From NCBI RefSeq assembly GCF_000014225.1, contig NC_008228.1, positions 3,906,001 to 3,970,000 on the forward strand: a stretch of DNA of 64,000 nt, given 5' to 3'. Position 1 is the stretch's first letter; every line of letters begins with the position of its first letter. The stretch is from Paraglaciecola sp. T6c. GTDB lineage: Bacteria; Pseudomonadota; Gammaproteobacteria; Enterobacterales; Alteromonadaceae. The position numbers and the translations under genes were made by a program. Shown here one piece after another: positions 47,606-59,117 of this stretch. The notes under the pieces were generated by a model. The model was not told where the DNA came from. It was given only the letters and a program-made list of their open reading frames with translations, and made no database searches.

Positions 47606-48964
47606 TTAGGAACCAGTTTTAATGTCCTCTAGATGGTACTTATCAATCAGCGAATAAAGCGTAGGGCGTGTCACCCCAAGTAATTCAGCAGTGCGCGACA
47701 TATTGCGCTCGGCCACTTGAAACGCATAACGAATAGCTTTGCTCTCAGCTTCCTCGCGCACTTCACGCAGGTTAAGTGTGCGCATGGTGTTGAGTTCTTC
47801 ATTTACCTGCAAACCTAAATCATCTGGTTGAATGTAAGCTGACTCAGCCATGATCACCGCAGATTTAAGCTTGTTCTGTAATTCACGAATGTTACCCGGC
47901 CAGCGATGCTGCAACATGGCTTGTGCTGCGCTGTCACTGAAGCCCTTCACTTTTGTTTTGAAGTCTTCGTTGTATTGATTTAAGAAGGTTTTACCCAGCA
48001 AAATCACATCGTTACCACGCTCACGCAGTGGCGGTATCACGATGTTGATTTCCCCTATCCGGTAATACAAATCTTCGCGAAATGTCTCTTGTGCGACCAT
48101 GCTATTTAAATCACGATGGGTCGCGCAAATAACACGAATATCGACTGGGATCTCAGTACGCCCGCCTACTCGCTCGATAACACGCTCTTGTAAAAAACGC
48201 AGCATCTTAGCTTGTAAGCCTACAGGCATATCACCGATTTCATCTAGAAAAAGTGTGCCGCCTTGAGCACTTTCAATTTTACCTGGTGTGGTTTTATTTG
48301 CGCCTGTAAACGCGCCTTTCTCATAACCAAACAGTTCACTTTCGAGCAAATTTTCTGGGATCGAGGCACAGTTAATAGCAACGAAGGCTTTGTTTTTGCG
48401 TAAGCTGTGTTCGTGAATGCTGCGCGCAAACACTTCTTTACCCGTGCCACTCTCCCCTAATAACAGCGTACTGATATCAGTTTGGGCAATGCGTTCAGCT
48501 TTTTTACTGACCGCTAAAATCTGTTCACTGTTGCCTATAATACGATCCATTGAGGGCGCCACCGCAGACAAGTGACGATTTTCTTGCTCTAAATCGTAGA
48601 GCTGTGCTGCTCTGCTGACCAATACTTGAATGGTATCTGAGTCAATGGGTTTCTGATAAAAGTCATACGCACCAAGCTCAATCGCTTTTAAGGCATTCAC
48701 TTTGTCGTTGTTGCCAGTTACCACAATCACTTTGGTGTTAGGGGATAACGCAAGTATTTCTTGAAGCGCAGCTAGGCCTTCAGTGGCATTGGCAGGATCT
48801 GGCGGCAACCCTAAATCAAGGGTAATCACCTTAGGCTCATGCCGGCGTAACTGAGTGATCGCAGAGGTGCGATCATCTGCAAACACCACATCATAGCCCG
48901 AGAAGCTCCACTTCAACTGCTTTTGAATACCTAAGTCGTCATCAACGACTAAAATCTTTTCCAT
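47606..48964 (-). CDS. prsR: PEP-CTERM-box response regulator (sigma-54 activator) PrsR
   Basis: 452 residues. Receiver domain with phosphoacceptor D50; AAA+ sigma-54 interaction domain with Walker A GESGTGKE at 170-177 and the sigma-54 contact loop GAFTGA at 217-222; C-terminal Fis-type helix-turn-helix (AELLGVTRPTLYSLIDKY). The sequence around the receiver (GLPPDPANATEGL, KPIDSDTIQVLVSRA) is that of PrsR, which controls PEP-CTERM/exopolysaccharide genes. AAGGA supports the start. It is 25 bases after prsK. A sigma-54 promoter is present at the PEP-CTERM gene at 58.99 kb. Confidence 0.93.
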   Translation of the reverse strand: MEKILVVDDDLGIQKQLKWSFSGYDVVFADDRTSAITQLRRHEPKVITLDLGLPPDPANATEGLAALQEILALSPNTKVIVVTGNNDKVNALKAIELGAYDFYQKPIDSDTIQVLVSRAAQLYDLEQENRHLSAVAPSMDRIIGNSEQILAVSKKAERIAQTDISTLLLGESGTGKEVFARSIHEHSLRKNKAFVAINCASIPENLLESELFGYEKGAFTGANKTTPGKIESAQGGTLFLDEIGDMPVGLQAKMLRFLQERVIERVGGRTEIPVDIRVICATHRDLNSMVAQETFREDLYYRIGEINIVIPPLRERGNDVILLGKTFLNQYNEDFKTKVKGFSDSAAQAMLQHRWPGNIRELQNKLKSAVIMAESAYIQPDDLGLQVNEELNTMRTLNLREVREEAESKAIRYAFQVAERNMSRTAELLGVTRPTLYSLIDKYHLEDIKTGS

Positions 48965-48989: not shown

Positions 48990-51008
48990 TTAGTTCGCTG
49001 GTATGTTCAACGTAAAGACTGTACCAACATTCTCTTCACTTTGAACATGTAAAAACCCACCTATTTTCTCTAAAAACGTTTTAGCATCATAAGCACCTAT
49101 GCCCATACCGGCATTGCCTTTAGTGGTATCAAAAGGCGTAAATAAGCGCTGCTGAATAAAACTCTTGCTCATGCCCGAGCCATTATCAGAAATAGTCACC
49201 ACCATGTTTTCGTTTTGTGGGGCATGGCAGACATCTACACGCACAAAACCATCGTCGGCGGTGGCTTGTTGCGCGTTGCTGATCAAGTGATACATCACAT
49301 TGGCGAACTTTTCTTGGTCAAGCACAACATCTATTTCACTATCGATCCTCAATTCTGGCTTGGGCAAGTATGTTGCACAGCGCTGTTCAATGACGTTTTC
49401 GATACACCCCGACAAATTGACTAACCTGTGCTGACTCGCTGGCTCTGCATTCTTCTCTGACAACTGGCGTAACATTTTATCCATACGAGCCTTGGTGTGA
49501 TGCAGCGTTTCAAAGGTATCCTCGATAAATTCGGGGTTATCCTTATGCTGCTCAGCATTACACAAAATTAAGTCAATTTGTGCCAAAACATTTTTCAAAT
49601 CGTGCAACACGAAAGCCGACATACGGGTGAATGCAGCGAACTGAGCATTTTCAGCCACTTCTTTTGCGGCCTCATGATGAAATAAAAAGTTAGTGATTTG
49701 CGCGGTCACCGCAGTAAGGTAGTCACGTAATTCCCAATTTAAACTGCGCGATGTGTCATTGGTGTTGCCCATCAACACTAACCCCCACAGCGTATCGCCT
49801 CGATAGATAGGGATAACCAATTGGAATGCAATTTTATTCAAGGTCCCGTGATTCACTTTTAAGCCCTCGTACACATAGGGCTTGGTGCGCAGCTCCGCCA
49901 TATCGATGATCCAGTTTTTCTGCTCAAAAAACGCAAAAAATTGCCTCATCACTTCGAGCTGCTCTTCGCATAAAGGTTCAGCGTCTACATCTGCTAGGTA
50001 TTCTACTTTGCTATCGACTCGCTTAAGTAGCAAGCCAGATTGGTAATCCATCGCCTGCAAAAAAGCGTTTAGCACAGTTTGATAAACAGCCTGCCCAGAC
50101 TGATTACTTTCTAACGATTTGGTTAACTTGACCCACTCATAACGATAGTCAAACTGATTGGCAAAAAAGTGTTTAGTAATAAACACTTTGACCTTGGTGC
50201 GAAAGCTCGTTGACAAAAATACCGTGGCAAGCAACGCCAACGACAGGAATATTAGCGCGACTTGGATTGAAGTACTCCACTCTCCCCCGTAGTATTTCAC
50301 CACATAGCCGATAAGCGACATGACAAACAAATAACACCCTGCCACCAGTAGCAAAGAGCTGTGCAACACCACCTCACGACTAACAAATATGTCAACGCCC
50401 CAATGCTGTACACGGCGTATGGCAAGCACCAGTAGCGGGATCATAGCGGTGTAAATAAAGCCTCTGGCGGCGATATACGTCAAGTCGATTTGCTCGACCA
50501 TAAGCGCGTTGGCGAAGGTGACAAATTCAAACAGGTTTGTGGCGCCTAAGTATAAAATTAGCGGTTTAAACGCCCAACGGTTTTCACCTGATTGGCGGTA
50601 GATAATCTCTAATAAAACCAACACTTGTAGTGCCAGAATGGTTTGCAGTAAAAACAACCAACTGTCGTTAACATCTAGAAACAGAGGAATAATTATGCCA
50701 GTAATTGGCAACGCCAGAATTAACCATGTTTCAGGGCGCTTAAGCACGCCCACCAAGCTGGTAAAGTTATCTTTTAAACACGCCGCCAGAAATAGCAGCC
50801 AGAACAATTGTTTGACGTTATCAAAAACGATGAGACGCTCTACGGTCAATTCGCCAATGAAAAAAGGTGAAAGGGACCACACACACGTAGCAGCTGTGGC
50901 CAATATTAATAAATATTTAGCTAAGCCCGACTTGCGCGATGTTAACAATAACAGCAGCAACAGTGCGTAACCCAAAGCACTGGCTGCATATCCCCAAACT
51001 GCTAGCAT
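48990..51008 (-). CDS. prsK: PEP-CTERM system histidine kinase PrsK
   Basis: 672 residues. The N-terminal ~270 residues hold about eight membrane helices, then a GAF-like domain (about 310-450, QSGLLLKRVDSKVEYLADV). The phosphoacceptor is probably H469 in FVLHDLKNVLAQ, and the ATPase domain ends the protein with ISDNGSGMSKSF, FTPFDTTKGNAGMGIGAY and a G2-type turn. The HDLKN form of the His motif and the domain order are those of PrsK. It forms a two-component system with PrsR immediately downstream. The membrane part suggests that an envelope signal is sensed. Confidence 0.93.
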   Translation of the reverse strand: MLAVWGYAASALGYALLLLLLLTSRKSGLAKYLLILATAATCVWSLSPFFIGELTVERLIVFDNVKQLFWLLFLAACLKDNFTSLVGVLKRPETWLILALPITGIIIPLFLDVNDSWLFLLQTILALQVLVLLEIIYRQSGENRWAFKPLILYLGATNLFEFVTFANALMVEQIDLTYIAARGFIYTAMIPLLVLAIRRVQHWGVDIFVSREVVLHSSLLLVAGCYLFVMSLIGYVVKYYGGEWSTSIQVALIFLSLALLATVFLSTSFRTKVKVFITKHFFANQFDYRYEWVKLTKSLESNQSGQAVYQTVLNAFLQAMDYQSGLLLKRVDSKVEYLADVDAEPLCEEQLEVMRQFFAFFEQKNWIIDMAELRTKPYVYEGLKVNHGTLNKIAFQLVIPIYRGDTLWGLVLMGNTNDTSRSLNWELRDYLTAVTAQITNFLFHHEAAKEVAENAQFAAFTRMSAFVLHDLKNVLAQIDLILCNAEQHKDNPEFIEDTFETLHHTKARMDKMLRQLSEKNAEPASQHRLVNLSGCIENVIEQRCATYLPKPELRIDSEIDVVLDQEKFANVMYHLISNAQQATADDGFVRVDVCHAPQNENMVVTISDNGSGMSKSFIQQRLFTPFDTTKGNAGMGIGAYDAKTFLEKIGGFLHVQSEENVGTVFTLNIPAN

Positions 51009-52193: not shown

Positions 52194-52616
52194 GTTTGTT
52201 TTTCCACTTGAAATATCCCCTTAGCTTATCGCTTTGGCGAGGAAATGTCATGAGCGTTCAAACGTTTACCTCTTCTATCATGCATATAATCAGCCCATAA
52301 ATAGATCTGTAAGCGCCCATCGCCCTTTGATTAGGGGCTCTAGAAGGTAAAGAGAACACAGAAGTTATGTAACAATTATCGACAACGAGCTGACGATATT
52401 AGGTTTTTTGGATCTTAAAGGAAGTGCCTAGTCTTGTTGTATGCTAAGTAAGTTCACGCTGCGCGAGAGCTGCCTGCAAAGCTCTCCCATCTCTAGTCTC
52501 AACAGGGGTGAAACAGAGAGGGGCAGACTTTGAGCTTGTAGAAACTATAAGTTTGGTGCTAAGGGCTAGCACCCAACTTATAGCTTAAGCCTTACGCTGA
52601 TGCCCTACGGCTCTTA
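52194..52616. other. 423-bp gap between glpT and KAS III genes
   Basis: No gene seen. It contains a perfect 7-bp stem GAGAGCT / AGCTCTC (52465-52486) and the stronger hairpin annotated at 52545. TTCAAACGTTTACC at 52257-52270 looks like a weak relative of the LacI-type operators but is not a good palindrome. Confidence 0.45.
52545..52583 (-). terminator. Probable terminator after glpT
   Basis: 17-bp stem with one mismatch (CTATAAGTTTGGTGCTA / TAGCACCCAACTTATAG), loop AGGGC, about 33 bases past the glpT stop. The T-tract on the minus strand is short (TTT). Confidence 0.55.
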
Positions 52617-58104: not shown

Positions 58105-58152
58105 AAAAGGGCAGCTACCTCAATCATCTCATTGAGGTAGCAGCCCTTTTAA
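58105..58152. terminator. Bidirectional terminator after cti
   Basis: Long stem AAGGGC-A-GCTACCTCAAT / ATTGAGGTAGC-A-GCCCTT with one internal A-A mismatch and A/T tracts on both sides. It serves cti and the convergent PEP-CTERM gene. Confidence 0.92.
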
Positions 58153-58179: not shown

Positions 58180-58989
58180 TTATCTATTTTGTTTTCTACG
58201 TTTGCGCAACCCTGCAAAACTAAGCGCAAATACACCTGCAAATAAGCATGCAAAAGTCGATGGTGCTGACACCGGGACACTTCCAACCACAATATCAATT
58301 GAACTGGTGGCCAATTCTCCACCATTTGCATCTAGTACCGTCAAGTTATAAGTAAACATGCCCTCAGTAGCCGCATCAAGCAGGCCAGAATAGCCAAAGC
58401 CGCGATTCTGAGAATTCTGCGCAACACTATAATTACTTAAATTAGAGGCGTAGTTAGCAACATCCACTAACCCATCACCATTCGCAGTGCCGCTATCGCC
58501 CAGTTCGTTGTCAGTCTTTAAGGTAATGATATCGAAACTGACAAAGTCAGTGCCGGCTGTGGGGTCTACATCAAACTCAAACAGATAAGTAAAATCATCT
58601 AACATCGCGCCCGATGCGTTAGCGCCCGCGTCAACATTCACCGCGTACTCGAAATTAAATACTGAACGATTTGCAGGTAATAAGCTTAAGGTAGGGTCAA
58701 ATGTATAAGTACGATCGCCGTCGTAGTTAAAGGTATTTTCAGGACTTCCGGAAGCGTTATATCTTAGCTTTCCTCGCAGGGCTACTTCAACGCCATTCAA
58801 TGCTTCCCCTGTCCACGAGCCGTTTGCATTACCATCGCCAAAAATGACGTCAGGCGTAATATTGCCTGTACCATTGATGGGTGTCGCTAAAGCATTAAAA
58901 GACAAACTGAGTACAGCGGTTAAACTCAGCAGTTTGGCCATCTTAGTGATCAAGTTAGAACGTATTTTTTTGCTATTATTCTTCTGCAT
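58180..58989 (-). CDS. PEP-CTERM-type sorting-domain protein (variant motif)
   Basis: 269 residues. A signal peptide (about 1-35, KLLSLTAVLSLSFNALA) is followed by a beta-rich, acidic and Asn/Gly-rich mature part (GTGNITPDVIFGDGNANGSWTG, TYLFEFDVDPTAGTDF). The C-terminal 29 residues have the tripartite sorting layout: short motif, hydrophobic helix and basic tail (VSAPSTFACLFAG ... LRKRRKQNR). The usual Pro-Glu-Pro reads Ser-Ala-Pro. Such tails are cut by an exosortase (not in the window) and occur on proteins released with exopolysaccharide. AAGGA supports the ATG. The sigma-54 promoter upstream ties it to PrsR. Confidence 0.85.
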   Translation of the reverse strand: MQKNNSKKIRSNLITKMAKLLSLTAVLSLSFNALATPINGTGNITPDVIFGDGNANGSWTGEALNGVEVALRGKLRYNASGSPENTFNYDGDRTYTFDPTLSLLPANRSVFNFEYAVNVDAGANASGAMLDDFTYLFEFDVDPTAGTDFVSFDIITLKTDNELGDSGTANGDGLVDVANYASNLSNYSVAQNSQNRGFGYSGLLDAATEGMFTYNLTVLDANGGELATSSIDIVVGSVPVSAPSTFACLFAGVFALSFAGLRKRRKQNR

Positions 58990-59024
58990 GTGACATTCCT
59001 TTTAGTAAAATCACAGCCTTACCA

Positions 59025-59039
59025 GCAAGAACAACACCA
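59025..59039 (-). promoter_or_regulatory. Sigma-54 promoter of the PEP-CTERM gene
   Basis: On the minus strand TGGTGT-N5-TTGC, with GG (59037-59038) and GC (59025-59026) separated by exactly 10 bases as sigma-54 requires. Transcription would start near 59013, 24 bases before the ATG. Confidence 0.75.
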
Positions 59040-59100
59040 CTTTAATTTTAACTTATGTATCAGACATTTAAAAAATCACAAAATACGAACGGCAGGCAAA

Positions 59101-59117
59101 TGTAAATTAATTTGACA
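59101..59117 (-). promoter_or_regulatory. Candidate PrsR-binding dyad (upstream activating site)
   Basis: TGTAAATTAATTTGACA, a dyad of the form TGTNAA-N5-TTNACA, about 90-105 bases upstream of the sigma-54 start, which is the usual position for an enhancer of this promoter class. Assignment to PrsR is inference. Confidence 0.4.

Follow-up and report, generated by a model that had tools for sequence, protein, structure and literature searches.

The window, i.e. the whole 64,000-nucleotide stretch of Paraglaciecola sp. T6c DNA analysed here, carries on its minus strand a gene for a secreted protein (referred to as the target gene) together with the prsK and prsR genes. Three short elements lie upstream of the target gene. 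The relevant features are as follows, in window coordinates.

47606–48964, minus strand: prsR, response regulator with a sigma-54 interaction domain, a GAFTGA loop and a Fis-type HTH
48990–51008, minus strand: prsK, histidine kinase of the PEP-CTERM system
58114–58141, minus strand: terminator-like hairpin, 3' of the target gene
58180–58989, minus strand: target gene, encoding a 269-aa secreted protein with a PEP-CTERM-type tail (VSAPST, a hydrophobic stretch and RKRRK)
59013, minus strand: predicted transcription start, placed from the promoter position by the usual -12 rule of sigma-54 promoters and coinciding with the first coordinate given in the original prediction
59024–59039, minus strand: sigma-54 promoter, TGGTGTTGTTCTTGCT (-24 GG at 59038–59037 and -12 GC at 59026–59025)
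59058–59070: IHF-type box, TATCAGACATTTA on the plus strand and TAAATGTCTGATA on the minus strand, matching WATCARNNNNTTR at 9 of 9 positions and starting 31 nt before the TGG of the promoter
59101–59117, minus strand: motif 1, TGTCAAATTAATTTACA, predicted PrsR binding site (enhancer)

The ATG of the target gene is located at 58989, and 34 nt separate it from the 16-nt promoter element. The PEP-CTERM tail is borderline, scoring 15.5 bits alone and 16 bits with its neighbours against TIGR02595 (cut-off, 16), and profile searches identified no family match of the protein at E ≤ 0.001 or E ≤ 0.01. Nine relatives were found in the genome contigs searched. The gene has relatives in Paraglaciecola, Aliiglaciecola and, more distantly, Phycisphaerales; orthologs of the protein end in VPAP and VPTP tails. 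PrsR and PrsK match their equivalog models with 701.6 bits (TIGR02915; cut-off, 502.6) and 601.4 bits (TIGR02916; cut-off, 300), respectively, and the GAFTGA sigma-54 contact loop that had been attributed to PrsR is present. The genome contains one RpoN (510.8 bits) and one EpsH/exosortase match (188.7 bits).

The original prediction placed prsKR 8 kb from the target gene, which holds as proximity and not as an exact figure, the distances being 7.2 kb to prsK and 9.2 kb to prsR. All four Paraglaciecola loci searched (L052–L055) share this arrangement. Proximity was nevertheless set aside as evidence, because in Aliiglaciecola (L057) the module is intact and a search of the 10-kb flanks did not detect PrsK. 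Autoregulation of prsKR was also considered: a motif-1-like site with one mismatch (52368–52384) is followed, after 71 nt, by GG-N10-GC. This candidate was dropped because four relatives conserve neither its TGTC half nor its promoter. The minus-strand region 52194–52400, upstream of the beta-ketoacyl-ACP synthase III–prsK–prsR cluster, contains the octamer TTGTTACA and a long leader stretch, both conserved among five Paraglaciecola sequences; this region is not a PrsR module.

The promoter had been described as TGGTGT-N5-TTGC with GG-N10-GC spacing, and TGGTGT-TGTTC-TTGC is indeed found at 59039–59025 on the minus strand, with GG and GC ten bases apart. The dyad TGTNAA-N5-TTNACA, described at enhancer distance, reads TGTAAA-TTAAT-TTGACA on the plus strand (TGTCAAATTAATTTACA on the gene's strand) and is separated from the promoter by a 61-nt spacer. 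The observation of a sigma-54 promoter plus an upstream dyad was thus confirmed. Both elements correspond to those given in the available part of PMC1569441 (Haft et al. 2006): TGTCAAATTAATTTACA has the exact core of the 17-nt motif 1 ending in TTTACA, and TGGTGTTGTTCTTGCT, with its 61-nt spacer, agrees with motif 2 (GG-N10-GC, 32–92 nt after motif 1). The exact 17-mer core of motif 1 occurs once in the window, but seven matches with at most one mismatch are present against 5.3 expected, so that the dyad alone is a weak signal. The module, i.e. the dyad plus a correctly spaced promoter (TGTC-N7-TTTACA, 45–75 nt, TGG-N10-GC), is found at 10 places in the 5.19-Mb genome (5,187,005 bases), whereas its reversed control does not occur at all; the pair is therefore not a product of chance. 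A control pattern with GG-N11-GC, one base off, occurs once genome-wide.

In eight aligned orthologous upstream regions, motif 1 and the promoter stand out as islands, most of the remainder having diverged. Motif 1 is exact in seven of the eight and the promoter is conserved in all, as is the IHF-type box, which lies at the same place with 8 or 9 of 9 positions matching. Both islands are kept in the Paraglaciecola and Aliiglaciecola orthologs, except in P. mesophila KMM 241 (L052, L062), where about 55 nt containing motif 1 are gone and the IHF-type box and promoter are retained. The protein of this strain is 95% identical to that of the window, and the loss of motif 1 counts against the model; judged from the draft contig, the strain carries a natural enhancer-deletion allele of the target gene. 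Among more distant homologs, motif 1 is exact at L069–L072 and at a second copy in G021 (L074), and it has one mismatch at L068 and L073. No module is present at the three Phycisphaerales (planctomycete) homologs (L058, L059 and L060; 35–43% identical). Unlike the protein family, the switch does not extend across phyla.

Eleven PEP-CTERM genes reach the TIGR02595 cut-off in this genome, the target gene barely so. The same promoter plus dyad had been expected before other PEP-CTERM genes, and this expectation was borne out, because a strict module is present at five of the 11 (L001, L006, L008, L010 and L011; spacers of 51–63 nt). L004 has a degenerate copy, and L002, which shows a weak cohesin match, lies 48 nt behind a module-bearing gene for an IgGFc-binding-domain protein (PF17517), with which it likely forms an operon. 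These two genes (L044/L002; genome positions 3348519–3351249) possibly encode a surface pair. A proper module is absent from the remaining four genes, which counts against the model: a weak candidate is all that precedes L003, L007 carries motif 1 but no promoter match, and no module lies before L005 or L009 (the upstream region of L005 falls outside its locus, and a strict copy was excluded by the genome-wide search). The five further modules found genome-wide lie before a gene for a nidogen-domain protein with a PEP-CTERM-like tail recognized by eye (L031/L050), before the IgGFc-binding gene, before a gene for a short protein with a twin-arginine-type N-terminus (L025), before L027/L042, and inside an ORF (L028/L043); the last was taken as false owing to this position. 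The L027/L042 module (genome positions 2816273–2816378) is of the PrsR type, with a 74-nt spacer, and precedes a gene for a Trans_reg_C regulator; the regulon could thus be a cascade.

The distribution of the module was compared with that of PrsR in 295 genomes of the order, representing 27 families, using module spacings of 40–70 nt and PrsR matches over the cut-off. The module was found in 80 genomes and PrsR in 90, and the module was present in 68 of the 90 PrsR-positive genomes versus 12 of the 205 PrsR-negative ones (both, 68; PrsR only, 22; module only, 12; neither, 193), giving a Fisher p of ~1e-34 with genomes counted without correction for relatedness. By hand-summed counts, 275 of the 288 modules are located in PrsR-positive genomes and 13 in the others. 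The 22 PrsR-positive genomes without a module at 40–70 nt, some of which have longer-spaced modules, count against the model. A sample of 120 of the 288 matches was drawn, consisting of 100 of the 101 outside G000 in the first family and 20 of the 41 in family f9 (G089, G207 and G043 complete, one of eight from G141, and none from G068, G169 and G156).

Complete downstream ORFs of at least 80 aa were identified for 154 of 168 modules examined, and 124 of these ORFs have a PEP-CTERM-like tail by a loose, simple pattern devised for this analysis; several of the other 30 look like variants by eye. Seven module targets, each in a different genome (L080, L089, L141, L149, L166, L025 and L214), are twin-arginine-type proteins of ~180–240 aa, and in five of these genomes the spacer is short (50–53 nt). 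The one copy tested (L025) had no Pfam match and a chance-level NCBIfam match (E 0.088). This family is probably a recurrent non-PEP-CTERM member of the regulon, a claim that forms part of the joint reading given below.

Spacer lengths in 128 sampled modules are unevenly distributed: 25 are 49–54 nt, none 55–58 nt, 100 are 59–65 nt, and three lie elsewhere. A search at 69–99 nt yielded 98 matches, including 52 at 72–74 nt and 17 at 82–85 nt; the peak heights of these two sets are not comparable, as they derive from different genome sets. The class means are 50.8, 62.2, 73.4 and 83.9, and the best single period is 11.25 bp. Enhancer–promoter spacers therefore fall into classes near 50, 62, 73 and 84 bp, approximately one helical turn apart. 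Most simply, these classes can be read as a requirement for PrsR and the polymerase to be turned towards one another over a loop that is short. Among 398 genomes of the phylum, modules outside the order fall into similar classes, as read by eye from the listing. In family f63, which lies outside the window's class (G442, G446, G406, G552, G579, G629, G632 and G652), several modules have spacers of 64–66 nt that contain a GTTAACC-like stretch, perhaps another bender.

Positional analysis of the modules revealed a conserved stretch within the spacer that resembles the IHF consensus, for which WATCARNNNNTTR was used (PMC8421141, available part). Read on the gene's strand as YAANNNNYTGATW, a box with 8–9 of 9 matching positions is found at -33 to -29 from the TGG in 51 of 94 non-redundant modules of the 62 class (shuffle mean 1.5, maximum 6) and in 17 of 39 of the 73 class (shuffle mean 0.5). 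Other intervals of equal width in the 62 class contain at most four box matches in the same orientation and at most nine in the opposite one. In the 73-class sample (40 of the 52 modules with spacers of 72–74 nt), a slightly stricter consensus gave boxes fixed relative to the promoter in 15 of 40 modules and relative to motif 1 in none of the 40. The box thus stays ~31 nt upstream of the promoter, irrespective of how far away the enhancer lies. In the 50 class, the box is rarer in the standard orientation (6 of 23), and the inverted consensus occurs at -19 to -14 in 10 of 24 modules, nine of them at -18. As IHF wraps ~35 bp asymmetrically about its consensus (PMC8421141, available part), the two orientations would place the bend at nearly the same position. 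A good IHF-type box is missing from about half of the modules, which counts against the model, and the box is therefore either not obligatory or often degenerate.

We read the stretch as a three-part PrsR/sigma-54 promoter of a PEP-CTERM gene, with a probability of about 85%. This reading draws on sequence-level findings, namely the three elements and their conservation, their links to PrsR and to PEP-CTERM genes, the spacing classes and the place of the box. The sigma-54 polymerase would wait in the closed state at 59039–59024. PrsK would sense a signal and phosphorylate PrsR, which would then assemble on TGTCAAATTAATTTACA and reach the polymerase via a DNA loop, where its AAA+ domain with the GAFTGA loop would remodel the sigma-54 polymerase and open the promoter. 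A bend at 59058–59070, with IHF as the most likely bender, would help the loop to close; as the loop is short, the face of the helix occupied by PrsR would have to be fixed. The direct PrsK–PrsR control proposed in the original prediction is supported by the modules before other PEP-CTERM genes, by the tracking of PrsR by the module in 295 genomes and by the single RpoN, and direct binding and activation are what we infer. The switch is probably a way in which bacteria turn on proteins bound for the outer surface.

One alternative accepts the sigma-54 promoter as real and assigns it to an NtrC-type activator other than PrsR, the dyad being the site of that protein. Fis-type activators often bind TGT...ACA dyads, and the genome encodes further NtrC-family regulators: four of the five candidates scored match the PrsR model with E ≤ 1e-100, of which the window's PrsR is the one listed above the cut-off. 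However, the module tracks true PrsR, whereas weaker NtrC-family matches are present in 245 of the 295 genomes, and the module targets are nearly all PEP-CTERM genes; we consider another activator quite improbable. We give almost no credence to a chance resemblance of the two elements in an A+T-rich intergenic region, with a sigma-70 promoter driving the gene. The chance-level frequency of the one-mismatch dyad in the window and a single weak sigma-70-like match at 59072–59045 speak for it, but chance resemblance was rejected on the genome-wide controls (10 versus 0 for the pair) and the conserved islands in orthologs, and a sigma-70 origin because sigma-70-like matches are at the shuffle level (5 versus 4.1).

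The third alternative concerns the IHF part only: the box at 59058–59070 might be an A+T-rich stretch contacted by the alpha subunit of the polymerase or by another protein. Its fixed distance to the promoter is what a polymerase contact would also show, and the box is missing from half of the modules, IHF binding itself being a prediction. The match, however, is to the asymmetric IHF consensus with its conserved TGA, the 50-class box is often inverted (10 of 24) with the deduced bend centre nearly unchanged, and IHF-assisted looping is standard at sigma-54 promoters according to the available part of PMC7057263. This alternative is unlikely, although a serious one, and IHF remains the most likely protein at the box. 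For PrsR promoters in general, we consider it reasonably probable, as one joint claim, that they share a three-part geometry in which an IHF-type bend has a set position with respect to the sigma-54 promoter, its box taking one of two orientations that hardly alter the bend centre, and the enhancer may slide only in whole helical turns (~50, 62, 73 or 84 bp), that P. mesophila KMM 241 represents an enhancer-deletion allele, and that the twin-arginine-type family belongs to the regulon.

Motif 1, motif 2, their spacing and PrsK/PrsR/PrsT are all described in the available part of PMC1569441, which locates sites upstream of 99 of 167 proteobacterial PEP-CTERM genes and gives the spacing as mean, SD, minimum and maximum. 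The module of the window is alike in having motif 1, a sigma-54 motif 2 and a comparable spacer (mean of 62.8 nt there versus 61 nt here), and in both cases most targets are single PEP-CTERM genes and the system is linked phylogenetically to PrsR/PrsK. The original prediction is therefore a correct rediscovery, as an almost identical one was published in 2006. The one-turn spacing classes and the IHF-type third element are described here and were not found in the available part of that paper, in which the term 'integration host factor' has 0 occurrences. In the literature searched, which includes few subscription journals, no paper combined PEP-CTERM with IHF and no title or abstract start dealt with the spacing classes; relative to that literature, the spacing classes and the conserved IHF-type box are new.

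The available part of a 2023 study (PMC9850573) describes the RpoN1-dependent pepA promoter of Aquincola tertiaricarbonis (-24/-12, TGGCAC/CTGCTT) with a mapped start, a transcript lost in the rpoN1 mutant and a predicted upstream enhancer. Like the target gene, pepA is a PEP-CTERM gene with a sigma-54 promoter and a predicted upstream enhancer, but it is a different gene in a different organism, and its RpoN dependence was proven by experiment, whereas that of the target gene is deduced from sequence. In the same source, a prsK or prsK–prsR plasmid did not restore flocculation to a prsK mutant, which counts against the model. The control of PEP-CTERM genes by PrsK–PrsR was predicted computationally in 2006; in the literature searched, RpoN dependence has been shown for one PEP-CTERM gene, and no demonstration of PrsR action was found. 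The present analysis adds a rule for the spacing, a third element that is probably an IHF site, an enhancer deletion of natural origin and a recurrent target outside the PEP-CTERM group. The spacing rule, the third element and the enhancer deletion make the prediction testable at the bench, and the sharper description of the module allows a cleaner listing of the genes under the PrsK–PrsR system.

At nifH and Pu, an activator site, an IHF bend and a sigma-54 promoter lie in line. The module of the window has the same order of elements as these IHF-assisted sigma-54 promoters (PMC7057263, available part). Unlike at nifH and Pu, the box here, with its predicted IHF binding, keeps its place relative to the promoter, the enhancer shifts by whole helical turns, and the arrangement extends over a large gene family.
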